Positions 6,037-41,966 of a DNA stretch of 41,966 bases are shown piece after piece; position 1 is the first letter of the stretch; the number at the start of each line of letters is the position of its first letter. The notes below the pieces were generated by a model. That model did no database searches. It saw nothing but the letters and a program-made list of their open reading frames with translations, and was not told where the DNA came from. This stretch comes from Butyrivibrio sp. GTDB lineage: Bacteria; Bacillota; Clostridia; Lachnospirales; Lachnospiraceae. The stretch is taken from assembly GCA_017413105.1 (NCBI GenBank), contig JAFPVA010000075.1, forward strand, positions 1 to 41,966, read 5' to 3'. Both the position numbers and the translations under genes were made by a program.

Positions 6037-6270
6037 GTGATATAGGGACGAAAAGTTACATTTTTGACTGCTTGCAGGCATAAAAATGTAACCTTGAGGA
6101 CCGAACATACATGAAGAAAGAAGACGTACGAATGCAATGAGTACGTCGATTTCTGAATGTATGCAGGATTGCGAGAGCGAAGCGGAGCAATCCGTATATC
6201 ACGGTCACGGAGCAGCGCGCAGCAAAGACATGCGTATTTGGTTAAGTACCTAGAGCGGAGGACATTTCAC
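6037..6270 (+). repeat. Structured intergenic element between upp and the dCMP deaminase gene
   Basis: Three hairpins occupy this 234-base gap. The first is a perfect 11-bp stem, GTTACATTTTT (6055-6065) with 6082-6092. The second is nested: CATACAT/ATGTATG (6106-6112, 6157-6163) encloses AGAAA/TTTCT and GACGTAC/GTACGTC (6123-6129, 6141-6147). The third is GGATTGC/GCAATCC (6166-6172, 6187-6193). The order resembles the repeat family at 31783 and elsewhere, but the sequence is not clearly the same, so kinship is only a suggestion. A deaminase start inside it is rejected. Confidence 0.5.
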
Positions 6271-30900: not shown

Positions 30901-31516
30901 GATCAGAGGCGCCGGAAGTCTTCTTGGAAGAAAACAGAGCGGACACATGGCAGCTGTAGGTTATGACCTGTACTGTAAGATGCTTGGTGAAGCGGTAAGA
31001 CACAAAAAGAGTGACGAGGCTGATGCCGACTATACACTTGAGGACATCAATACCAGTATTGATCTTGATGTAAGTGCATTTATTCCGGACGATTATATCC
31101 TTAACGAGGAACAAAAGCTCGAAATATACAAGAGGATTGCCAGCCTTGAAAATCAGGGTGAATGCGATGAGATGAAGGATGAGCTTATCGACAGATTCGG
31201 AAAGGTTCCGGATACTGCAATTAATCTTCTTCGAATATCTCTTTTGCGGACAAGGGCCCACGCACTTTACATTCATGAGATCAAGGGCGGAGACGGCAAG
31301 ATTGAGATAAAGATAAATCCGGGAGCAAAGATTGATTCCGGAAAAATACCGGGCTTTGTGGCAGGATATAAGGGGAAGATGGCTTTCCATGCTTCCGGAA
31401 TGCCTTTATTTGTGTACACCTATCAGAAGGATAAAAATCCTGTTAAGGCAGAAAAACATCTTCTTGAAGATACAGAAGCACTGATAGAGAAAATGACAGA
31501 GGTACTTATGGGGTGA
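27950..31516 (+). CDS. mfd: Transcription-repair coupling factor
   Basis: This 1188-residue ATPase displaces RNA polymerase stalled at DNA lesions and recruits UvrA. The order is: a UvrB-like N-terminal module (about 1-350, including [14 protein letters not shown]), the polymerase-interaction domain (about 485-560: [20 protein letters not shown]), and a RecG-like translocase. The translocase has Walker [10 protein letters not shown] (661-669), DEEQ (D762-Q765), [13 protein letters not shown] and [15 protein letters not shown]. Last come the TRG motif region ([17 protein letters not shown]) and the C-terminal TRCF domain. The length is normal. The ribosome binding site is modest. The last four bases overlap the GTG of the next gene, so the nuclease is co-transcribed. 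Confidence 0.96.
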
Positions 31517-31764
31517 GTAACTACGCATATATTTTGGAGTGTGCCGATGGTTCATATTACTGTGGCTGGACCAATGACCTGGAGAAAAGAGTGAAGACTC
31601 ACAACGAAGGGAAAGGCGGAAAATATACAAGAGCAAGGCTCCCGGTGAGGCTGGCTTACTTTGAAGAATTTGAGACAAAAGAGCAAGCCATGAGCAGAGA
31701 GTGGCATCTAAAGCGGCTGAGTCATAGCCGGAAACAATCGCTAATTATGAAAAAGAGTATTTAG
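31513..31764 (+). CDS. GIY-YIG nuclease-domain protein (YhbQ/UPF0213 type)
   Basis: This 83-residue single-domain protein contains the GIY-YIG fold: [18 protein letters not shown] (the GIY and YIG positions appear as YIL and CGW), [20 protein letters not shown] with the catalytic-region Arg, and [18 protein letters not shown] with the metal-binding Glu. The family (UPF0213, YhbQ-like) has proposed DNA-structure-specific nuclease activity. The GTG start at 31513 overlaps the mfd stop (GTGA), which fixes the start and suggests translational coupling. A role beside Mfd in DNA repair is inference from position. A full structured-repeat copy and a terminator follow. Confidence 0.88.
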
Positions 31765-31782
31765 AACATTTGATATTAAAAG

Positions 31783-31927
31783 GTTACTGTTCAGACAGAA
31801 ATGCGCACTAAGCTGCGCATTTCGTGAGAACTTGATGCAGGAGTGAGCGCATTCCTTCGATGAAGTCGAATTGGAATGAATGCGCGAATTGGTTACTGGA
31901 GCGAGCTGCATGCGAGTGAACAGTAAC
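31783..31927 (+). repeat. Structured repeat, copy 1 (145 nt)
   Basis: Outer arms GTTACTGTTCA (31783-31793) and TGAACAGTAAC (31917-31927) pair perfectly. Inside are hairpin 1 (AAATGCGCA/TGCGCATTT, 31799-31822), a linker CGTGAGAACTTGATGCAGG (31823 onward), and hairpin 2 (GCGCATT/AATGCGC, 31847-31885, tip TCGAT-GAA-GTCGA). Then comes a second GTTACT (31892) that can also pair with the right arm. It differs from copy 2 at only five of 145 positions. Confidence 0.85.
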
Positions 31928-31930
31928 ATT

Positions 31931-31964
31931 AAAAGAAGCGGTCGCTAAAACGATCGCTTCTTTT
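31931..31964. terminator. Bidirectional terminator between the GIY-YIG gene and the first U32-like gene
   Basis: AAAAGAAGCGGTCG (31931-31944) pairs with CGATCGCTTCTTTT (31951-31964, one G-T) around a six-base loop. The arm ends provide T-runs on both strands. Confidence 0.82.
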
Positions 31965-31976
31965 GGATTATTGTCA

Positions 31977-32888
31977 TTATCTTTTTCTTGCAGCCATTTT
32001 TTTTGCATTTATTTCTGTAAGGCGCTTGTTTATCTGATTTCTTATGAATTCTTCCTCGCCATCTTTTACCAGGAAGTAGAGATATGAGTCAAGTACCAGA
32101 TCCTGAGGAAGACCTCTGCCCACCAGCTTAAAATTCCTAAAGCCCATATCAATATATTCCTTCATCTGCTCCTTGGAGATGAAAGCGGGTTTGTTCTGAC
32201 AGTCGGCAAAGCTCTTTTTCTCCTGCCTGTTTGGACATGGGAAAGGAGCTGCAATTTCAAATTCAAGCTGTCTCTTGGCTTCGTCCCTATAGTGCTCTAG
32301 GCGCTTTGGGCAGTTAGGAAAGCAGATCTCATCTACCAGAATTTCTACTCTGTCTGCCACAGGTCTAAGACTTTCAAGGACAGCCTGATCATGATTCATA
32401 TCGTAGTCAAGAACTACCATAAAATAGTCTTTGTCCAATTCCTCATGTAACTTATCAGGATCAGTTATTCTCTTGGTTGTTGAAGAAATGAATTTGTAGC
32501 CTGGATATTCTTTCCTAAGATAGTTTTCAAGAATTTCAGTATTTACAAGAACCTGATTTTCTCCATCTGCGGCAAGGCGCATGATCATGTTGCAGAAAGT
32601 ATCGTTTAAATGTTTCTCCTCAATAAGTGGATTAGTCCAGGTAAATCTAAGTGGAACATGTCTTGAATTGAACATTTTTATGGTGCGTTCTATTTCGTTT
32701 TTTGGACAAAAGCCAAGCACCGTTCTGCCCCCATTCCAAATAGCGCCGGGAAATGTTCCATAGACACTTCCAATCTTGTAATTCTCATTAAATGAATTTG
32801 GGTATTCCTTCATGAGCTCAACAATGGTAAAGTTGAGGTCGCGAAATACGCTAAAGCCCGGCAGATGCCAGTAAATGTAATCCCTCAT
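31977..32888 (-). CDS. U32-peptidase-like Fe-S protein, paralogue A
   Basis: This 303-residue soluble protein is a diverged relative of the U32 family (YdcP, YhbU/UbiU, TrhP), whose characterised members carry a 4Fe-4S cluster and assist RNA or ubiquinone hydroxylation. Points of match are RFTWTNPLIEEKHL, the strand-helix ILENYLRKEYPGYKFISSTT, VVLDYDMNHD, EILVDEICFPNCPKRLEHY and MGFRNFKLVGR (the family's G-x-x-x-FKIEGR motif). Four cysteines at cluster-like positions (CFPNC, then PC and DC) are shared with the paralogue at 33246. It lacks the long C-terminal domain of YdcP. The substrate is unknown. GGGGG precedes the ATG. Confidence 0.65.
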   Translation of the reverse strand: MRDYIYWHLPGFSVFRDLNFTIVELMKEYPNSFNENYKIGSVYGTFPGAIWNGGRTVLGFCPKNEIERTIKMFNSRHVPLRFTWTNPLIEEKHLNDTFCNMIMRLAADGENQVLVNTEILENYLRKEYPGYKFISSTTKRITDPDKLHEELDKDYFMVVLDYDMNHDQAVLESLRPVADRVEILVDEICFPNCPKRLEHYRDEAKRQLEFEIAAPFPCPNRQEKKSFADCQNKPAFISKEQMKEYIDMGFRNFKLVGRGLPQDLVLDSYLYFLVKDGEEEFIRNQINKRLTEINAKKMAARKR

Positions 32889-32937
32889 ATATTGCCCCCG
32901 TTACAAAACTTAATATCGGATTTAATTATACTAAAAA

Positions 32938-32964
32938 AGCAGCCGAAGGTAAAATTCGGCTGCT
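32938..32964 (-). terminator. Intrinsic terminator downstream of paralogue B
   Basis: A perfect 10-bp stem AGCAGCCGAA/TTCGGCTGCT (32938-32947, 32955-32964) is followed on the minus strand by TTTTTTAG. It lies about 280 bases beyond the paralogue B stop, with repeat copy 2 in between. Confidence 0.8.
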
Positions 32965-32993
32965 ATTAATTACAATAATAATGATGGGTGATG

Positions 32994-33138
32994 GTTACTG
33001 TTCAGACAGAAATGCGCACTAAGCTGCGCATTTCGTAAGAACTTGATGCAGGAGTGAGCGCATTCCTTCGACGAAGTCGATATGGAATGAATGCGCGAAT
33101 TGGTTACTGGAGCGAGCTGTATGCGAGTGAACAGTAAC
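32994..33138 (+). repeat. Structured repeat, copy 2 (145 nt)
   Basis: This copy has the same length and architecture as copy 1, with five substitutions. Outer arms are 32994-33004 and 33128-33138. The tip of hairpin 2 is TCGAC-GAA-GTCGA, where copy 1 has U-G for C-G at the same pair. GGGTGATG precedes the copy (32986) and follows it (33139). Adjacent genes are on the minus strand, so any transcript of them would carry the antisense form. Confidence 0.85.
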
Positions 33139-33146
33139 GGGTGATG

Positions 33147-33181
33147 GTTACAGGAGCGAGCTGTATGCAGCGAACAGTAAC
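33147..33181 (+). repeat. Partial structured repeat (right-hand hairpin only)
   Basis: GTTAC (33147) to GTAAC (33181) encloses AGGAGCGAGCTGTATGCAGC, a copy of the last hairpin module of copies 1 and 2. It is again followed by GGGTGATG (33182). It looks like a tandem partial duplication. Confidence 0.6.
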
Positions 33182-33245
33182 GGGTGATGCTACTGCTTGT
33201 GTTGTACTGCGCACTGGATGTGCGGCTTGCTGCAATGTGTATGGG

Positions 33246-34202
33246 TTAAGGTTTAAATACGGAAGGACGAGGCTTGTTGACCTGGATGATCCTGTTGGCT
33301 TCAAGATTTCTTAGAAGCAGGAGTCTTACCTTACCTACATATTCTGGCTTTATCATGAAGAAACAATAGGTTTCAATAAGAGAGAACAGGTTAGCAGTTC
33401 TTCCCTCAATCTTAAAGTTATTGATTCCCATGGGCACGTATTTTTCCCAGATGAGTTCCGGAGAAACAAAGGTACAGTAATCCTGGATTGTATAAAGGTT
33501 GTTCATATCACCGTATTCACATTTCCATGGGATGATATGCTTTCTTTTTTCCGGAGGGAGAGTTCTGTTCTCCTTCATTATAGCCTGGTTGAGAGCGATG
33601 TTCTTGTAGTGATCGCCACGTCTTGGGCAATCCGGAATACACAGTGCGTTTATAAGGACTTCGAGCTTGTCCTTGTGCTCAAGACCTTCCAGGATATCCC
33701 AGTGATTATTCATATTGTAATCAAGAACTACATACTTATAGTCTTTTTCCAGCTCTGCATTAAGGGTCGCAACATCCTTGATTTCTTTGCAGGTGGTGGA
33801 ATCAATCTTGTAGGAAGGATAGTTCTTGCGGATATATTCTTCGAGAATAGGTGAAAAGACAAGGACTTCATTCTTGCCATTATCGCCTGCCTTCATGCAG
33901 AAGTTGCAGAACTCGTCATCCAGATCCTCCTCTGTGATAAGGGGATTGGTGAAAGTGAAGCGAACAGGAATGTCCTGGGCGTTTATGCTGCTTATAACGT
34001 GTTTTACAAATGCGGCGTCGCACTGATCGTCGGAAATAAGACGACCGCCATTCCAAAGAGAGAATGGAAAACAACCAAAGAAGGATGCAATCTCAACTCC
34101 GTCTCTGAAGTACTGCGGATATTGCTTCAGCAGGTTCAGCCAGAACATATTCAGGGGAAAATTGTATCGAAGCCCCGGTAAATGAAACTTAACTTGTGAC
34201 AT
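33246..34202 (-). CDS. U32-peptidase-like Fe-S protein, paralogue B
   Basis: This 318-residue paralogue of the gene at 31977 is clearly alignable along its length but strongly diverged. Shared landmarks are FPFSLWNGGRL, VRFTFTNPLITEEDL, ILEEYIRKNYPSYKIDSTT, VVLDYNMNNH, EVLINALCIPDCPRRGDHY and MGINNFKIEGR, the last being a near-perfect U32 signature. Cysteines in CIPDC, WKCEY and QDYCTF match those of paralogue A, suggesting a 4Fe-4S site. Start 34202 is set by GGGAGG seven bases upstream; the frame is open further back but has no better start. A role in modifying tRNA, rRNA or a small molecule is possible; none is shown by the sequence. Confidence 0.68.
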   Translation of the reverse strand: MSQVKFHLPGLRYNFPLNMFWLNLLKQYPQYFRDGVEIASFFGCFPFSLWNGGRLISDDQCDAAFVKHVISSINAQDIPVRFTFTNPLITEEDLDDEFCNFCMKAGDNGKNEVLVFSPILEEYIRKNYPSYKIDSTTCKEIKDVATLNAELEKDYKYVVLDYNMNNHWDILEGLEHKDKLEVLINALCIPDCPRRGDHYKNIALNQAIMKENRTLPPEKRKHIIPWKCEYGDMNNLYTIQDYCTFVSPELIWEKYVPMGINNFKIEGRTANLFSLIETYCFFMIKPEYVGKVRLLLLRNLEANRIIQVNKPRPSVFKP

Positions 34203-34317
34203 TGTGTAACCTCCCGGTGAATGTACAATAATACTGCTGATCGACAAAATATGTACATACACCAATACTTAATAAATATGATCAGCATAGAATAGTATAT
34301 CAGTATAAGCAAGAAAA

Positions 34318-34345
34318 AGACACCCATGGATTTGCATAGGTGTCT
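34318..34345 (-). terminator. Terminator downstream of ddh
   Basis: AGACACC (34318-34324) pairs with GGTGTCT (34339-34345), the loop partly pairing. The minus strand continues TTTTTCTT. Repeat copy 3 lies between this site and the ddh stop. Confidence 0.72.
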
Positions 34346-34366
34346 CGAAAAATGCTTAAGTCATGA

Positions 34367-34506
34367 ATTCTTAGATAATATTTCAGAAACACGCATTTAC
34401 TGCGGGTTTCGTGAGAACATGATTCAGGTGGCAAACAAGCCCTTCGACGTAAGTCGACTGGAATAGGCTTGTTTGCTGATATCTAGAATGTTTCATTCAA
34501 GATATC
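34367..34506 (+). repeat. Structured repeat, copy 3
   Basis: Hairpin 1 (AAACACGCA/TGCGGGTTT, 34387-34409, one mismatch) is followed by linker CGTGAGAACATGATTCAGG. Hairpin 2 is a perfect 11-bp stem GCAAACAAGCC/GGCTTGTTTGC (34431-34441, 34466-34476) whose tip is TCGAC-GTAA-GTCGA. TATCTAGAAT (34480-34489) can pair with ATTCTTAGATA (34367-34377) or with CATTCAAGATATC (34494-34506). Confidence 0.8.
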
Positions 34507-34514
34507 ATAAAATA

Positions 34515-35501
34515 TCAGAGCAGATGTGCCCTAAGCTCCTCGCCGCTTAAATTTGAGAGATATGCAGGTGGGATATCAAGCATTGTCTTGCAGCCGGTCA
34601 TACCCTCAGACTGCATTCTGAAAGCAGCTCTTGCTACAGCTACAAGGACACTTGTTGTGAACTCTGGGTTGGAATCGAGCTTTAAGCTGTACTCAATGAT
34701 GTGATTGTGCTCCTTATCTGCTCCGGTCTTGCCGCTCCTGAATACGAAACCGCCGTGAGCCATGCCGCTATGGTTCTTAAGAAGCTCTTCTTCGCTGATG
34801 AAATGAACGGTTGTGTCATAATCTGCAAAGTAGTTTGGCATTTCCTTGATCTCTTTTTCTACAGCTGCAGCATCGGCGCCATCCTCAAGAACAACAAAAC
34901 ATTCTCTTGTGTGCTTTTCTCTGGTAGTAAGCTCAGGATTCTTGCCGCTTCTTACAGCCTCAAGAGCACTCTCAACAGGAATAGTGTACTGCTTGGCGTT
35001 TTTAACACCCTTTATGCGACGGATTGCATCGGAATGACCCTGAGATACTCCTTTGCCCCAGAAAGTGTAGTCGTTGCCGTCCGGAAGAATCGCATTTGAG
35101 TAAACTCTGGCCAGTGAAAACATGCCCGGATCCCAGCCGCAGGAGATGACAGCAACTTTGCCGGCAGACTTTGCTGCGGCATCAACATTGCTGAAATGTT
35201 CAGGAATCCTTGCATGAGTATCGAAGCTGTCAACAACGTTGAACATTCCGGCATATTCAGGGGTCTGAACAGGAAGATCAGTGGCGCTTCCTCCGCAGAG
35301 GATCATAACATCAATCTTGTCTTTGTACTGAGCTACCTCAGAAACAGATACTACAGGAACACCCTGAGTTCTGATTGAAAGGGAAGAAGGATCTCTTCTT
35401 GTAAAAACTGCAACAAGCTCCATATCAGGGGCAGCAGCTACAGCCAGTTCAACACCTTTTCCCAGATTACCATAACCTAAAATACCAATTCGTGTACTCA
35501 T
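34515..35501 (-). CDS. ddh: meso-Diaminopimelate D-dehydrogenase
   Basis: This 328-residue NADPH enzyme converts tetrahydrodipicolinate, ammonia and NADPH to meso-diaminopimelate in one step, supplying lysine and peptidoglycan cross-links. The Rossmann start is MSTRIGILGYGNLGKGVELAV. Substrate-side motifs are VVDSFDTHARIPEH, VISCGWDPGMFSLARV, FWGKGVSQGHSDAIRRI and HGGFVFRSG, all typical of Ddh. AGGAGG lies seven bases before the ATG. It follows the GH5 gene by 66 bases and has an extended -10 (35555-35563), so it is probably transcribed on its own. Repeat copy 3 and a terminator follow. Confidence 0.95.
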   Translation of the reverse strand: MSTRIGILGYGNLGKGVELAVAAAPDMELVAVFTRRDPSSLSIRTQGVPVVSVSEVAQYKDKIDVMILCGGSATDLPVQTPEYAGMFNVVDSFDTHARIPEHFSNVDAAAKSAGKVAVISCGWDPGMFSLARVYSNAILPDGNDYTFWGKGVSQGHSDAIRRIKGVKNAKQYTIPVESALEAVRSGKNPELTTREKHTRECFVVLEDGADAAAVEKEIKEMPNYFADYDTTVHFISEEELLKNHSGMAHGGFVFRSGKTGADKEHNHIIEYSLKLDSNPEFTTSVLVAVARAAFRMQSEGMTGCKTMLDIPPAYLSNLSGEELRAHLL

Positions 35502-35554
35502 CCGTTTCCTCCTAAAACAAAACTATTTAAAGCCTATTTTATTTTACAGGGTGA

Positions 35555-35563
35555 ATTATAACA
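35555..35563 (-). promoter_or_regulatory. Candidate extended -10 promoter of ddh
   Basis: On the minus strand TGTTATAAT fits TGnTATAAT and lies 54 bases before the ddh ATG. I see no good -35. Confidence 0.4.
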
Positions 35564-35567
35564 TAGA

Positions 35568-36914
35568 TTACTCCTGATTGCTGTAGCTTTCGCGGATAAT
35601 GGTATCAACAACGTCTTCTCTGTACCAGGTGAGATTTTTGCGGTCAAAGATGGCAAACTTTTCACCGGAAGCATTGTATATTCCGTTATCCCACCAGAAA
35701 CAAGGGATACCCTTCTGTGTTGCTTTTGAAACGTAATACTTTGCCCATTTATTTACTTCTTCGCCGTTATCCTTCTTTTCCTCTGCGCCATATTCGGTTA
35801 TGAGTACTGATATTCCTTTGTCAAGGAACGTCTTTTTGAGATCATTCATTACGCTTACGATATCGCTGTTATGGCTCCCGTTCCAGTCAAATACTTCATA
35901 GCTTTCACCATTGGCATAGGTAAATGCATAAGGAGTATAGGCGTGGATTGAAACTGCAAGATGATCGTCTTCAGGGATAGCAAGATCGTTTATGGTTGTG
36001 AGAACGTGGGAGGCTGCAAAGCTTGTTATAAGAACAAGACGCTTTTCGTTGTTGCCGCCTGTAGCTCTGACTGTATCAACAAAGGATTGATTGAGACGGT
36101 CGAGACATCTTCTTCCTTCTTCGGTTCCGCCATTCCACTCGTTTTCGCCACCCTTTACTCTGGGCTCATTGAGACCTTCAAAAATAAGGTGATCGCCGTA
36201 ATCTTTAAAACGTTCCGAAACCTGTTTCCAGAGAGCTATGTTCTGGGCATCTGCCGCATCAATATGTGCGTTATCGGGAATTCGCCAGTCTTCCTCGTGA
36301 TGGGAATTGATGATAACATACATTCCGTCATCAAGAGCATAGTTTACAACTTCTTCTACACGGTCAAGCCACTCGGGCTCAATGGTGTAATCCGGAGCTG
36401 CTGACATGTGATCTGCATAAGTTACAGGGATGCGGATAGCATTAAAACCCTTCTCACATACAGTATCAATCATCTCTTTGGTGGTTGTCGGGTTTCCCCA
36501 GGAGGTTTCAGCATTCAGACCGCTGGTGCCGAAAGCATCAAAGGTGTTGCCAAGATTCCAGCCGGCCTTTATCTCAGAGACAAGCTCTGCGGGGGTGATG
36601 TCTCTCATTTCGTCGTTCCTTTCAGTAATACCGATGACCTGGATTTCTTCCTGGACCTCAGCGTCGGTTTCTGTTGATGTTGATTCTGCCTCTTTTGCAG
36701 TGGCTTTTGCATCAGCAGCATTTTCCTCGGTTGTTTCAGCTGCGGCTTCGGCTTCTGGGGGCTGTGTATCTGCATTTGCAGAAACTTCAGTGCCTTCAGC
36801 AGAACTGCTTGTTGTAGCGGGCTCTGTCTGGGGATTACTATTCCCGCAGCCTGCAAGTAAAGCAGCAGAAACAAAAGTTGCAGTAACCATAGATAATAAT
36901 TTCTTTTTTAACAT
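35568..36914 (-). CDS. Lipoprotein glycoside hydrolase family 5 (endo-beta-glucanase type)
   Basis: This 448-residue protein has a lipoprotein signal (lipobox LAGC, C23), an acidic, Ala/Thr/Glu-rich linker (about 25-95) and a GH5 barrel (about 100-448). The barrel opens GWNLGNTFDAFG and ETSWGNPTTTKEMID, followed by GFNAIRIPVTYADH, VIINSHHEEDW, the acid/base E250 in FEGLNEPR, and the nucleophile E374 in LITEYGAEEK. This order is that of subfamily GH5_4, which attacks beta-1,4-glucans, xyloglucan or mannan; the exact substrate is not decided. Lipidation implies it sits on the outer face of the membrane and cuts polysaccharide there. It is preceded by a terminator of the esterase-GH43 gene, so it has its own promoter. 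Confidence 0.92.
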   Translation of the reverse strand: MLKKKLLSMVTATFVSAALLAGCGNSNPQTEPATTSSSAEGTEVSANADTQPPEAEAAAETTEENAADAKATAKEAESTSTETDAEVQEEIQVIGITERNDEMRDITPAELVSEIKAGWNLGNTFDAFGTSGLNAETSWGNPTTTKEMIDTVCEKGFNAIRIPVTYADHMSAAPDYTIEPEWLDRVEEVVNYALDDGMYVIINSHHEEDWRIPDNAHIDAADAQNIALWKQVSERFKDYGDHLIFEGLNEPRVKGGENEWNGGTEEGRRCLDRLNQSFVDTVRATGGNNEKRLVLITSFAASHVLTTINDLAIPEDDHLAVSIHAYTPYAFTYANGESYEVFDWNGSHNSDIVSVMNDLKKTFLDKGISVLITEYGAEEKKDNGEEVNKWAKYYVSKATQKGIPCFWWDNGIYNASGEKFAIFDRKNLTWYREDVVDTIIRESYSNQE

Positions 36915-37013
36915 TTTTTACCTCATAAAACTGAATAATTGTAGTGACAGAATAATTGTATTATGCAACCTTTGGAGGCATTTAACAAGCAGAACTGTAT
37001 TGTGCATAAAATA

Positions 37014-37055
37014 ATGACTTCCTATGGATAAAGTTGTTATGCCATAGGAAGTCAT
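37014..37055 (-). terminator. Terminator of the esterase-GH43 gene
   Basis: A perfect 14-bp stem (37014-37027 with 37042-37055) has a 14-base loop. The minus strand continues TATTTTATG, a modest T-run. It lies eight bases after the stop codon. Confidence 0.72.
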
Positions 37056-37062
37056 CTGCAAT

Positions 37063-39840
37063 TTAATGAAGCAGTTCAATGGATAACAGGCTTGGAGTTC
37101 CGCTTCCTACATAGCGCAGGTACAGCGCATGCACTCCTGAAACTGCCGGGAAGTGGCACTCAAAGTTTTCCCAGATGTTTGAGCCGATGCCGTCAATCTT
37201 GCCAAGTACTTCGCCGTCGAGGCTTGTCCTTACCTCAAAACTTCCGTTGAAGTATGCTCTTGTTCGGATTTTAAGACCTGTCACATTCTTGAAATCAAAA
37301 TACTTAAAGCCAATAGTTGTACCATCAACAATGCCTTTGATGTAGCCGTTGTTCTGGTCGCCGTCGCCGCCTTCCTGAACAACTCTTGGGGCACCGGGCT
37401 CAACATAGAGCTTGTGCTCATCTGTAAAGATGTTGCAGGCAATGTATGAAGGATATTCGCCAATATCTGAAAGAGGACCGTTATTAAGTCCGCAGGAAGT
37501 AATCTCAACCTGCTTTATGGAGCCGTCTTTTTCAAAGTGAATCTTCTCTGCGCAGCCCTGTCTGCTAAACCAGGTACCGTTTGTATGTCTGTGATAGAAG
37601 ATGTACCAGTCCGCTCCGATCTGAACAATACTTCCGTGGTTGTTGGCACCATAGGCTGTTGCCTCATCGGCCTTTTTGTAGCTGTCGATATGAAGGTCTG
37701 CATTGCTGACAATTACGCCGCCATAGGTATATGGTCCAAGAGGATCTTTGCTGGTTGCGTAGCACAGTTCGTGCATAACTTCTGAGGAATAAATGAAGTA
37801 GTAGGTATCGTCATGCTTTCTGATGGAAGGGGCCTCAAAGAAAGCGTGCTTCTCAAAGCCGGTTCCCTCACTGTACATGCAGCCTGGAGCAATAAATTCG
37901 GGAGTTCTCTTTATTGTGAGCATATCTTTGTCAAGAACTGTGAGCATGGCGCCATGTCTTGACTTATCGCCTTGTCCGCAGAAGCCGGTGAAGAGATATG
38001 TATTATCACCCTCGGTTAATACGCCTGGATCGAACTGTGGCTCATCTCCCTCTTTTTCTCCAAGACGAGTTCCGTCCTCATAGTGAACATAACCGTGGAA
38101 CTTGAAAGGACCTGCAGGAGTGTCGGCGACTGCTACCGATACAACACATACCTTATCAAGTACATAGAAGAGGTAGTATCTTCCATCGGGACCAACAGTT
38201 ACGTCAGGAGCGTAAAGACACATGTTGCCCCTTTCATTAAGAGCATCTGCATCCTTGGGATAAATAACGCCTTCGTAGTGCCAGTTGCCAAGGTCATCTA
38301 TCGGAGCTGACCAGCATACATAATCTCCGAGGCAGAAGGTCTCGCCGCCATAGAGGTCGTGGGAGCCGTACACATAAACTCTGTTGTTAAACACATAAGG
38401 CTCCCCGTCGGGAATATATTCCCAGGAAGGAAGGTATGGGTTAACGGCCTGTTTTTTGCTGTTTTGTCTGATACCGCCCTCAAGCTTTGGAGTAGCACCT
38501 CTTCCAAGGAATTCCATCTCGTGCTTTGCGCTTTCCTTGTAGGCTTCCCATTTAGGAAGCTTCTTTGTATCGCTTCCGATTCCGTTAGGGTCACCTGTCT
38601 TTATGAAGTTTGCAAAATAGTCGCACATCTGGCGGGCAAGATCAAAATGTCTTCCAGTGTATGGACGATGACACTTTTCCAGACTTCCGAAGAAAAACCA
38701 GAGGTCAACTGAATGGAAGGTTCCGGGATAGGAATCGCCCTCATGGCCATCCCCGGGAATGTCGGGATCAAACCTATAGTAGTAGAAGTTCTGGGAAGGA
38801 GCGTTCTTCTCAGCACCTTTAAATGCATATTTAACTGAATTCTCAACGGTGTTAACTCCGGCAAAAGAGAATTCGTCTGAAGTATTTCCTGCAATTACAG
38901 GGACATCCGCACAGTCTCTTGCAATGAACTGCTCGACAGGGTCTCCGGTGCAGAAGAAACCATCCTGAATAGGGAACATCCTTGGATGATCTGCGACAAA
39001 CTTATTGTAACCGCTAAATACTTCTTCCTGGCTAAGGGCGCGGGCCTCCTCAAGAGTAGAAACGCCAAGGCTTGCAAAAAATTCTTTTCCCAGAGCCTCA
39101 GCCTTCTCTAGATTAAGAGGTTTGAAGATGTCTGCATCAACAGAAGCAGGCTTTATGATTCCGCTTATTACGGCAGCGCCCTTGACGATGTGACGGTTGT
39201 CCTTATTGACCAGCTGGTGCATTGTGCTGGCACCGCCTGCAGACTGACCTGCGATAGTGATTCTTTCAGGATCTCCACCGAAAGCAGCGATGTTTCTGTA
39301 AACCCAGTGAAGTCCTGCCTGCTGATCAAGAAGTCCGAAGTTAGATGGTTTCTCGGGAGCCTCCTTTGTTATATCAGGATGAGCAAGGAAGCCGAAGCAG
39401 TTAAGGCGATAGTTGACGCTTACTACTATTACTCCGCGTTTTGCCAGCTGCTCACCGTTAAACTCCATCTCTGCTGTATATCCCCACTGGAAGCCACCTC
39501 CAAAAAACCATACAAGGACAGGAAGCTTCTCATCTGCTTTTTTGGCAGGAGTCCATACGTTGAGGTAAAGACAATCCTCATTTATATAGATACCCGGATC
39601 TACGTGCCATTCTCTGCAGTAGATGTCAGTGCCCATTCCCGGGCGATCCTGAACTGATATTGGAGCAAAATCAAATGCCTCCAGTGTGCCTTCCCAGTCC
39701 TTTGCAGGCTGAGGAGCACGCCATCTGTTTTCGCCCACCGGAGGTGCAGCAAATGGAATTCCTCTGTAAACTGTGATTCTGGGATTTGTTCCGGCCAGAC
39801 CCCTTACAAAGCCGTTTTCTACCTTGGTTTCTCTAAGCAT
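37063..39840 (-). CDS. Bifunctional carboxylesterase (type B)-GH43 fusion
   Basis: This 925-residue single frame contains two enzymes. Residues 1 to about 470 are a type-B carboxylesterase: IPFAAPPVGENRWRAPQ, NEDCLYLNVWTP, WFFGGGFQWG (oxyanion hole), the nucleophile S200 in GQSAGG, an acid in GNTSDEFSF and a His in GTFHSVDLW. From about 465 a GH43 five-bladed propeller follows: base D478 in YIPDGEP, YAPDV (D546), modulator D604 in FDPGVL and acid E669 in FEAPS. A C-terminal beta-sandwich of CBM6 type (about 790-925) ends the protein. There is no signal peptide, so it is cytoplasmic and probably removes ester groups and arabinosyl or xylosyl units from imported oligosaccharides. GGGAGG precedes the ATG. 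Confidence 0.88.
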   Translation of the reverse strand: MLRETKVENGFVRGLAGTNPRITVYRGIPFAAPPVGENRWRAPQPAKDWEGTLEAFDFAPISVQDRPGMGTDIYCREWHVDPGIYINEDCLYLNVWTPAKKADEKLPVLVWFFGGGFQWGYTAEMEFNGEQLAKRGVIVVSVNYRLNCFGFLAHPDITKEAPEKPSNFGLLDQQAGLHWVYRNIAAFGGDPERITIAGQSAGGASTMHQLVNKDNRHIVKGAAVISGIIKPASVDADIFKPLNLEKAEALGKEFFASLGVSTLEEARALSQEEVFSGYNKFVADHPRMFPIQDGFFCTGDPVEQFIARDCADVPVIAGNTSDEFSFAGVNTVENSVKYAFKGAEKNAPSQNFYYYRFDPDIPGDGHEGDSYPGTFHSVDLWFFFGSLEKCHRPYTGRHFDLARQMCDYFANFIKTGDPNGIGSDTKKLPKWEAYKESAKHEMEFLGRGATPKLEGGIRQNSKKQAVNPYLPSWEYIPDGEPYVFNNRVYVYGSHDLYGGETFCLGDYVCWSAPIDDLGNWHYEGVIYPKDADALNERGNMCLYAPDVTVGPDGRYYLFYVLDKVCVVSVAVADTPAGPFKFHGYVHYEDGTRLGEKEGDEPQFDPGVLTEGDNTYLFTGFCGQGDKSRHGAMLTVLDKDMLTIKRTPEFIAPGCMYSEGTGFEKHAFFEAPSIRKHDDTYYFIYSSEVMHELCYATSKDPLGPYTYGGVIVSNADLHIDSYKKADEATAYGANNHGSIVQIGADWYIFYHRHTNGTWFSRQGCAEKIHFEKDGSIKQVEITSCGLNNGPLSDIGEYPSYIACNIFTDEHKLYVEPGAPRVVQEGGDGDQNNGYIKGIVDGTTIGFKYFDFKNVTGLKIRTRAYFNGSFEVRTSLDGEVLGKIDGIGSNIWENFECHFPAVSGVHALYLRYVGSGTPSLLSIELLH

Positions 39841-40089
39841 TTTTGCCTCCCGTTACATTATTATTATCATTATTAGATTTGCATTATTTCCCCTAAAAAT
39901 CCTAACCTTAATTAATTGTAATATATAGTCTTGGAAACTTTACCATCCACTCAAATATTGCTATGAACTATCAAGTCCTTGCTAAACGCAATTTATGAAA
40001 TTAAATCAGCAATTTTTTGGTGGTGCAAGGTGATGTTTATCGCATATATTACAATTTGTAATTTACTTAGAGGAATAGGTGAGGTGGTC
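39841..40089. other. Divergent promoter region of the two GH43 genes
   Basis: This 249-base AT-rich gap lies between the divergent esterase-GH43 and GH43 lipoprotein genes, so both promoters must be near here, but I find no near-consensus pair. A small palindrome ATTACA-ATT-TGTAAT (40048-40062) lies about 30 bases before the lipoprotein start and could be an operator. Confidence 0.35.
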
Positions 40090-41742
40090 ATGAGGAACAA
40101 AAAAATCAGCACAATCTCGAATAATGTTAAATATCCTTTTAAGATCCTAAGCCTTGTGACTGCCACGTCTTTATTCCTTAGCTCCTGCGGTTTCTTGGGG
40201 GAGAAAGAGACAGAGAATGAGGCGGTCCTGGTGGAAGCTGAGACCGATACAAAAGAGCAAGATTTGAAAAGTGAAATAAAAGATTCGACGGAGGAAAGTG
40301 AGATGGTATCAAAAATTGAATTGCAGACAAGTGCAAAACCTGTGACAGACCATAATCCTGTAATGGTTCAGCGCTTTGGTGCAGACCCTTACGCCCTGGT
40401 TTACGACGGAAGAGTTTATCTTTATATGACAGGAGACAAGCTTTCCTACAATCCTGATAAGACTGTAAAAGAGAACACATACGGCAATATCGATACAATC
40501 TGTGTGATCTCATCTGATGATCTTGTTAACTGGACAGATCATGGAACAGTGTATGCTGCAGGCAGAAACGGTGCGGCTAACTGGGGTAACAATTCATGGG
40601 CTCCTGCTGCTGCTTACAAGAATATCGATGGCAAGGACAAGTTCTTCTTATATTTTGCAAATAATGGAAACGGCGTTGCTGTACTTACTTCAGATACACC
40701 ATACGGCCCGTTTACAGATCCGATTGGCGGTCCTCTTATTTCAAGAGAGACACCTACCTGTGCAGAAGTAACCTGGCTCTTTGATCCGGCCGTTTTGATG
40801 GATGATGACGGTGAAGCTTACATTTACTTCGGAGGAGGAGTTCCTTCACCTGAAAATGCTTCTAATCCGGGAACAGCAAGAGTTGCGAAACTTGGCGCTG
40901 ATATGATAAGCCTTGATGGAGATCCAAAGCCAATCGAGAACGTTGATTATCTGTTTGAGGATTCAGGAATCAACAAGATAAACGGTTCATATTACTACTC
41001 TTACTGCTCAAACTTCAGTGTTACTCCTGAAGCAACAAAGGAGCTTGACATTGAGAGCGGAGAAATAGTTACCATGAAATCTGATTCTCCAATGGGACCT
41101 TTCGAGAGGTTTACCGGAGTTCTGAAGAATCCGGAGAGATTCTTTGGCAGAGGCGGTAATAACCATCACTGTATCTTCGAATTCAATGGAGAATATTACA
41201 TCACTTATCACACAAGAATTCTTGAGGAAAAGATGGGATTAGACGGTGGCTATCGCAGCACCAACATTGACAAGCTTCTTTTTGATGAGAATAATGAGCC
41301 TGCAGCCAGCAAAGGAACCAGAGCAGGTGTTGATCAGCTTAAAGCCTTTGATCCTTACACAGAAGTTAAGGCAGTTACTATGTCTAATGCAGCAGGCATT
41401 AAGACCAAGCAGTTTGGTGAGGAAGCAGAGAAGTACGGCTCAGGCGACATGATCCTTGCGGGAATCTCAGACGGAGCATGGAGTAGTGTGTCAGGCGTTG
41501 ACTTTGGCACTGATGGCGCAAAGAAGATTACTTTCAAGGTAAAAGGAACAGGAAACGGAAACATTCGTGTATGCCTCGATCTTCCTTCAGCTGATCCGGT
41601 TGGAGTTGCAATGGTAGAAGCTCCGGGTAAGGAACTTGCAGAAGTTGTAGCAGAGCTTGTTGCACCAATCACCGGGGAACACAACATTTACTTTGTATAT
41701 GAAGGTAAAGACTTCGAAGTATATTCCTGGCAGGCGGAGTAA
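40090..41742 (+). CDS. Lipoprotein glycoside hydrolase family 43
   Basis: This 550-residue protein begins with a lipoprotein signal (LFLSSC, C33) and an acidic linker (about 36-85). The GH43 domain (about 85-420) has base D99 in GADPYALVYDG, WAPAAAYKN, modulator D232 in FDPAVLMDDDG and acid E290 in FEDSGINKINGSYYYSY, plus HHCIFEFNGEYYITYHTR. The last 130 residues form a beta-sandwich resembling CBM6 (AGISDGAWSSVSGVDFGTDGAKKITFKVKG...NIYFVYEG), which would bind xylan or arabinoxylan ends. Expected activity is beta-xylosidase or alpha-arabinofuranosidase. ATG 40090 is chosen over 39979 because GAGGTGG precedes it and the signal peptide starts there. It is divergent from the esterase-GH43 gene. 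Confidence 0.88.
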   Translation: MRNKKISTISNNVKYPFKILSLVTATSLFLSSCGFLGEKETENEAVLVEAETDTKEQDLKSEIKDSTEESEMVSKIELQTSAKPVTDHNPVMVQRFGADPYALVYDGRVYLYMTGDKLSYNPDKTVKENTYGNIDTICVISSDDLVNWTDHGTVYAAGRNGAANWGNNSWAPAAAYKNIDGKDKFFLYFANNGNGVAVLTSDTPYGPFTDPIGGPLISRETPTCAEVTWLFDPAVLMDDDGEAYIYFGGGVPSPENASNPGTARVAKLGADMISLDGDPKPIENVDYLFEDSGINKINGSYYYSYCSNFSVTPEATKELDIESGEIVTMKSDSPMGPFERFTGVLKNPERFFGRGGNNHHCIFEFNGEYYITYHTRILEEKMGLDGGYRSTNIDKLLFDENNEPAASKGTRAGVDQLKAFDPYTEVKAVTMSNAAGIKTKQFGEEAEKYGSGDMILAGISDGAWSSVSGVDFGTDGAKKITFKVKGTGNGNIRVCLDLPSADPVGVAMVEAPGKELAEVVAELVAPITGEHNIYFVYEGKDFEVYSWQAE

Positions 41743-41836
41743 GTACTAGATAAGAGGATTCAGATAAACGGTAAAGAGCAGCTAAGGGTTTATGTAATGA
41801 ACTTTTGCTGCCGAGTGATTCGGATTGCATGAGTTC

Positions 41837-41966
41837 TTGGATAAAATTACAGAAATCCGCACTTGCTGCGGGTTTCGTGAGAACATGATTCAAGAGTCAA
41901 CCAAGCCCTGCGACGTTAGTCGCCTTCAAATGGCTTGGTTGATACATTCTTGGATTTTATATCCAA
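41837..41966 (+). repeat. Structured repeat, copy 4, cut by the window end
   Basis: Hairpin 1 AAATCCGCA/TGCGGGTTT (41853-41875, one G-U) and a linker identical to copy 3 are followed by hairpin 2. That is a perfect 11-bp stem TCAACCAAGCC/GGCTTGGTTGA (41897-41907, 41932-41942) with tip GCGAC-GTTA-GTCGC. TTGGAT recurs at 41837 and 41950, and ATCCAA at 41961 can pair with either. It lies 94 bases after the GH43 stop. Confidence 0.78.

Follow-up and report, generated by a model that had tools for sequence, protein, structure and literature searches.

The window analysed here is a 41,966-nt stretch of Butyrivibrio sp. DNA (contig JAFPVA010000075.1; its assembly, GCA_017413105.1, is referred to as the own genome), and it contains four copies of a small structured repeat. 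All four represent a small mobile DNA element, a property missed by the preliminary description, which was made from the sequence alone. The four repeats that it had noted were found at roughly the noted positions (31783-31927, 32994-33138, 34365-34508 and 41831-41966). A 93-nt core, composed of hairpin 1, a near-invariant linker (CGTRAGAANNTGATNCA) and hairpin 2, is common to all four copies. This same core is carried by two element types, termed A (copies 1 and 2) and B (copies 3 and 4). R1, a covariance model of the core built from 19 rows, partly from copies 1-3, with a structure supplied by us, returned exactly these four copies above 80 bits when searched against the window, together with two other matches below 14 bits. 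The features are as follows.

31775..31782, no strand: 8-bp target duplication ATTAAAAG, left member of the pair flanking copy 1, repeated at 31928-31935
31783..31927, + strand: copy 1, a complete A-type element of 145 bp with terminal inverted repeats (TIRs) GTTACTGTTCA and TGAACAGTAAC (from sequence and R1)
31796..31888, + strand: structured core of copy 1, comprising hairpin 1, linker and hairpin 2 (R1 match; R1 was partly built from copy 1)
31892..31927, + strand: hairpin 3 of copy 1, a pairing of arm 2 (GTTACTG) and the CAGTAAC at the 3' terminus (from sequence)
32986..32993, no strand: 8-bp target duplication GGGTGATG, also at 33139-33146 and 33182-33189
32994..33138, + strand: copy 2, a complete A-type element of 145 bp (from sequence and R1)
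33147..33181, + strand: 35-bp mini-element resembling an A-type hairpin-3 end, between two GGGTGATG repeats (from sequence)
34365..34508, + strand: copy 3, a B-type element of 144 bp with the same core and other ends (from sequence and R1)
41831..41966, + strand: copy 4, a B-type element with about 8 bp lost at the contig end (from sequence and R1)

Hairpin 1, the linker, the three stem variants of hairpin 2 and the TGGAAT motif after the tip in copies 1-3 all agreed with the preliminary description. Its outer arms are present, only not as one kind, since they differ between copies 1-2 and copies 3-4. The GNA tip loop held for copies 1 and 2 (GAA) and not for copy 3 (GTAA) or copy 4 (GTTA), and the tip stem is paired as described apart from one G-U pair in copy 1. 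The recurrence is more than chance, as the linker pattern TTTCGTRAGAACNTGAT occurs 112 times in the own genome and its reversed control 0 times.

Mobility of the two element types

In copies 1 and 2, the inverted ends of the A type (GTTACTGTTCA...TGAACAGTAAC) are bounded by exact 8-bp target duplications. Both ends and both flanks were available for 15 own-genome A copies, of which 12 show an exact 8-bp duplication and three a duplication with one mismatch; outside this set are one copy at a contig edge and eight rows without a recognised 3' end. An automatic rule applied to the relatives found 58 of 131 linker sites with a duplication of at least 7/8 and inverted ends of at least 9/14. A stricter first-base rule applied to nearly all loci yielded 91 distinct A elements, 63 of them with exact duplications, in a set that keeps solely elements bounded by duplications of at least 7/8. 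Four loci were joined in the analysis of empty sites, with a clear boundary at L070 and L050 and none at L027 or L040, while L363 fell below the score used. For the A type, relative L365 reads through the L070 insertion point with one target copy; this empty site was read by eye, as the aligner had misplaced the right flank, and a separate match also spans the junction. Terminal inverted repeats, a target-site duplication, many copies and the lack of a transposase gene, for which 145 bp is too short, make the A type a miniature inverted-repeat transposable element (MITE) by the usual characters.

Several individual copies are unusual. The mini-element at 33147-33181 looks like the deletion product of a tandem pair. 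At L075 (minus strand, near 2492) a copy stops inside the linker and an exact 8-bp repeat (GATAATGA) flanks it all the same, as if the copy had moved with one end missing. The 8-bp duplication at L125 (AAAAGGAG) resembles a ribosome-binding site, so that the insertion doubled that sequence.

An 8-bp target duplication is a hallmark of IS66 insertion sequences (ISs), and larger elements with ends of the A kind encode IS66 transposase domains. At C88:3663-6152 of the own genome such ends (GTTACTATTCAC, with A in place of G at position 7) enclose a 601-aa frame matching PF03050 (IS66) at E 2.1e-14. A deleted remnant at C166:14063-14971, also in the own genome, retains both A-kind ends around a 92-aa frame whose domain match is marginal (E 2.8e-5; 24.1 bits against a cut-off of 23.1, and 22.1, below cut-off, in a second search). 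Among the relatives, L293:1863-4069 has both ends and a 581-aa frame (IS66 domain, E 9.7e-20), and L296:1-2293 has a 413-aa frame (E 1.1e-23) with its first end at contig base 1. The C88 and L293 transposases share 27% identity over 398 positions. With a limit of E 1, C88, C166 and L293 contain no core match, and L296 has none either; L292 gave a weak one (14.4 bits, E 0.06). A small upstream frame was also observed in the IS66-type elements (C166:14225-14536 of the own genome and relatives), and no Pfam match above cut-off was returned for the 104 aa searched. The GTAAC-type ends in many of the relatives' copies resemble the known IS66 ends GTAAGCG and GTAACCG given in an extract of PMC12888890. 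Because IS66-type transposons in both the own genome and relatives carry such ends, the A type is best read, from these sequence comparisons, as an IS66-mobilised MITE, which would be moved in trans by the IS66 transposase.

The B type has a different construction. Its ends read AT|GAGTTCTTRGAT...|AT over 144 bp, with neither TIRs nor an 8-bp duplication, and copies often stand in 144-bp tandems arranged head to tail, with AT at the joins. Where own-genome L050 has an AT on either side of the element, relative L357 reads a single AT, which fits either a 2-bp duplication or none, and in L357 a tandem duplication of about 21 nt lies beside the empty site. The B type is therefore mobile as well. 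At L016 and L061, a B element is nested in an A element with different left flanks, and this composite may have moved as a unit.

Distribution, structure and placement

The repeat family extends far beyond the four copies of the preliminary description. R1 identified at least 150 core copies in the own genome, a lower bound because only 150 of 1783 candidates were scored and every one was a match. A core match was present in 52 of 397 sampled Lachnospiraceae genomes, the own genome included, with ten candidates scored per genome and stricter filters. In a class-wide sample, which lists 16 genomes of the own family, four of 391 genomes matched, all of the own genus. A scan of named records returned at least 119 stretches with the element; the 80 record titles listed name genera that we take to be Lachnospiraceae, or loosely named Lachnospiraceae, Eubacterium, Eubacteriales and Ruminococcaceae bins. 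Viral contigs gave 0 exact pattern matches, and plasmids and phages gave no match to a single A copy used as query.

The preliminary description knew of no named family with this linker, and no Rfam 15 family reached its cut-off over any copy tested (searches with the gathering score as threshold, and with E values allowed up to 1 on 6 and 10 loci). A sub-threshold match to MIR8041, antisense over a B copy (28.1 of 80 bits, E 0.05), is chance-like. A sub-threshold T-box match at L119:2943-3055 (44.4 of 93 bits, E 7.5e-7) lies beside a copy and not over it, and a Clostridiales-1 RNA (RF01699, 102.6 bits) lies elsewhere in the window at 6037-6202. No account of this repeat family was found among the literature titles listed (at most 20 per search), and extracts of two MITE papers (PMC9769881, PMC3189936) name IS66 just in IS tables. 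The family could be among the 3161 candidate structured RNAs that an extract of PMC8040213 reports from human microbiomes.

The preliminary description had taken stems that change while pairing persists as a mark of selected structure rather than decay, and covariation strongly supports this. An alignment of 130 matches, which amount to 122 distinct rows and come from 100 of 148 loci in relatives, gave 721 double-change cells against 218±12 in our own shuffles (a test other than R-scape) and at most 191 with partners slid; it was fitted to R1 and thus leans towards the R1 structure. All 25 pairs change on both sides (22.3 in shuffles), and the helices are paired in 95.2%, 77.2% and 55.7% of cells. 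An automatic rule classed the tip loop as GNA in 77 of the 122 rows. Folding of five sense copies, one of them window copy 1, gave z values of -4.7 to -9.4.

In hairpin 3, the 3' inverted end (arm 3) is paired with an arm inside the element (arm 2), and the same arm 3 can be compared in two pairings. In the 91 A elements, arm 2 and arm 3 make 599 Watson-Crick, 28 G-T, 1 A-C and 9 other pairs, while the inverted ends themselves (arm 1 and arm 3) make 587 Watson-Crick, 7 G-T, 20 A-C and 23 other pairs. Counted per distinct arm, the G-T:A-C ratio is 15:1 in hairpin 3 versus 7:9 in the inverted ends, and unrelated best-match stems demonstrated no bias (73:76). Of the 50 positions at which arm 1 and arm 3 do not pair, arm 2 is paired with arm 3 in 39. 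The result was the same whether arm 2 was placed by its pairing with arm 3 or by its likeness to arm 1. Because hairpin 3 tolerates G-U but not A-C, a single strand is favoured over double-stranded DNA, and this too speaks for selected structure and not decay. Single-stranded DNA could give the same bias; placement argues for RNA, and hairpin 3 is under selection on one strand, most likely as RNA.

Placement was evaluated from open frames called around the sites by a simple script of our own. The relatives' 130 sites comprised 48 sense, 22 antisense, 33 divergent, 10 convergent and 17 edge sites, and the complete genome CE91-St56, in which 30 of 36 matches were classed, gave 13 sense, 2 antisense, 11 divergent and 4 convergent. 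When the relatives were pooled, with one site common to both sets counted once, the 3' neighbour lay in the sense of the element in 104 of 142 cases (p 2.8e-8) and the 5' neighbour in 74 of 142 (p 0.67). No recurring neighbour gene family was detected, the largest similarity cluster (among 25 listed) holding 6 of 448 neighbour proteins. Promoter-like sites in 31700-34600 numbered 6 versus 5.9 in shuffles, none of them on the plus strand inside a copy; the first hexamer of one minus-strand site falls within the left end of copy 2. In the window, a GIY-YIG domain frame (31513-31764; PF01541, E 5.8e-21) stops just before copy 1. Copy 2 separates two related proteins (31977-32888 and 33246-34265; 36% identical), neither of which has a Pfam match at E 0.001.

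Weighing the explanations

Our preferred explanation, to which we assign a probability of roughly 0.7, is that an IS66-moved A-type MITE and a TIR-less B chassis carry one conserved, cis-acting structured RNA. The A type would be moved in trans by IS66-type transposases that recognise GTWAC...TTC ends and make 8-bp target duplications, and the B type would be the same core on a second, TIR-less chassis inserting at an AT. The sense strand, read from the promoter of the neighbouring gene, would then fold into three hairpins, with the linker between hairpins 1 and 2 and, in most cases, a GNA tip on hairpin 2. The resulting RNA may act in cis in mRNA 5' leaders by affecting stability, processing or the access of ribosomes, and the linker may serve as a recognition site. 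The explanation draws direct support from the mobility of both types, the ends shared with IS66 elements, the covariation, the strand-specific hairpin 3 and the sense placement before genes in relatives; that IS66 transposase moves the A type in trans, and that the RNA is made and acts in cis in 5' leaders, we infer.

A number of results weigh against this explanation. The B type has neither IS66-like ends nor the 8-bp duplication, and lacking such ends it leaves half of the window copies beyond what IS66 can explain. Visual inspection showed no 8-bp duplication beside C88, C166 or L293. The linker is more conserved than the stems in the relatives' alignment, a difference partly built in because the linker pattern itself had served to find 80 of the 100 loci; model-found loci also show a conserved linker, with exceptions such as L130, L133 and L135. 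Antisense folds of two copies gave z values of -4.5 and -8.0, and because both strands fold well, folding energy alone cannot name the strand. The preference for G-U over A-C is weak in hairpins 1 and 2 (41 vs 23 distinct contexts, p 0.03) and goes the other way in own-genome hairpin 2 (2 G-U vs 4 A-C). Own-genome placement, from which 41 of 90 sites were dropped at contig edges, was 20 sense versus 12 antisense (p 0.22, not significant), with 9 divergent and 8 convergent.

The alternative that survives best, although we consider it unlikely, is that these are plain MITEs whose palindromes serve at the DNA level, as cruciforms or for transposase binding, with no RNA role, and whose orientation bias arises because harmful antisense insertions are selected out. 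Every MITE character that was looked for is present in the A type, and the neighbours form no recurring gene family. In addition, antisense hairpin 1 of copies 1 and 2 is terminator-like (2 of 6 such sites; 2.3 in shuffles, sd 1.4), so that an element inserted upstream of a gene in antisense could do harm, and selection against such insertions is a live part-explanation of the placement. Plain MITEs do not, however, account for hairpins 1 and 2 being internal rather than terminal, for the contrast in mismatches between hairpin 3 and the true inverted ends, or for one core being common to two different chassis.

Much less probable are single-strand DNA elements of the IS200/IS605 or REP type that would fold on the lagging strand and have a Y1 transposase as their mover. 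Such elements would explain why the B type, with its end hairpins and its tandems joined at AT, lacks TIRs and 8-bp duplications, and single-strand DNA would likewise favour G-T over A-C. The A type nevertheless has 8-bp duplications, and the complete genome demonstrated no replichore bias (20 vs 16 of 36, by hand count with the origin assumed near base 1). A Y1/RAYT mover is not supported, as the sole own-genome PF01797 match (L081, on C9) adjoins a different repeat of its own (GGAACGAGGGGACGG), with no core match in L081 around the RAYT-like Y1 gene. A search with the B 5' end found no autonomous B element: 45 of the 47 matches were core copies and two were shortened copies, one internally deleted (C240) and one truncated (C316). 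No Y1 transposon with B ends was found in what is a fragmented assembly. A gene-specific riboswitch or leader RNA is the least credible of the three, for in spite of the strong covariation and the 5'-leader placement in relatives, the copies have target duplications and empty sites, and the neighbours form no recurring family, which speaks against a classical riboswitch.

Beyond the preferred explanation, we tentatively raise the possibility that the repeats constitute a structured regulatory RNA of a new class, observed to date in Lachnospiraceae alone, which would be the cargo of at least two unrelated transposition chassis and would have been placed by them in the 5' leaders of numerous unrelated genes. 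Its sense transcript would fold around a conserved linker used by a host factor, or by the RNA itself, for mRNA control. Repeats this small are often dismissed as passive debris. Here one RNA architecture persists despite heavy stem turnover, in two chassis and across a family of gut and rumen bacteria. Comparing G-U with A-C mismatches in the terminal hairpin, and taking the inverted ends of the same elements as the control, offers a direct test of RNA-level selection on a transposable element.

Comparison with known systems

The IS66 family resembles the A type in its GTWAC-type ends, in the 8-bp duplication (in the MITE) and in the IS66 transposase domain of the end-sharing elements, and it differs in carrying its own transposase, which the repeats lack. 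REP repeats with RAYT are likewise dispersed, structured and intergenic, whereas the Y1 gene of the own genome adjoins a different repeat and not the core. ERIC and Correia, according to extracts of PMC10969869 and PMC3049150, are also MITE-like repeats with folding transcripts, for which RNase cutting has been reported (Correia) or proposed (ERIC); they belong to other hosts and have other sequences. BOX of Streptococcus pneumoniae, as an extract of PMC3049150 presents it, is similarly small, has TIRs, target duplications and ends like those of a resident IS, and possesses strong transcript structure that is expected to affect co-transcribed genes. By that description BOX is set apart by its modular A-B-C organisation, its Streptococcus host and its IS (ISSpn2). 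While no core shared by two chassis is seen for BOX in the same extract, the Lachnospiraceae repeats carry one core on two chassis.

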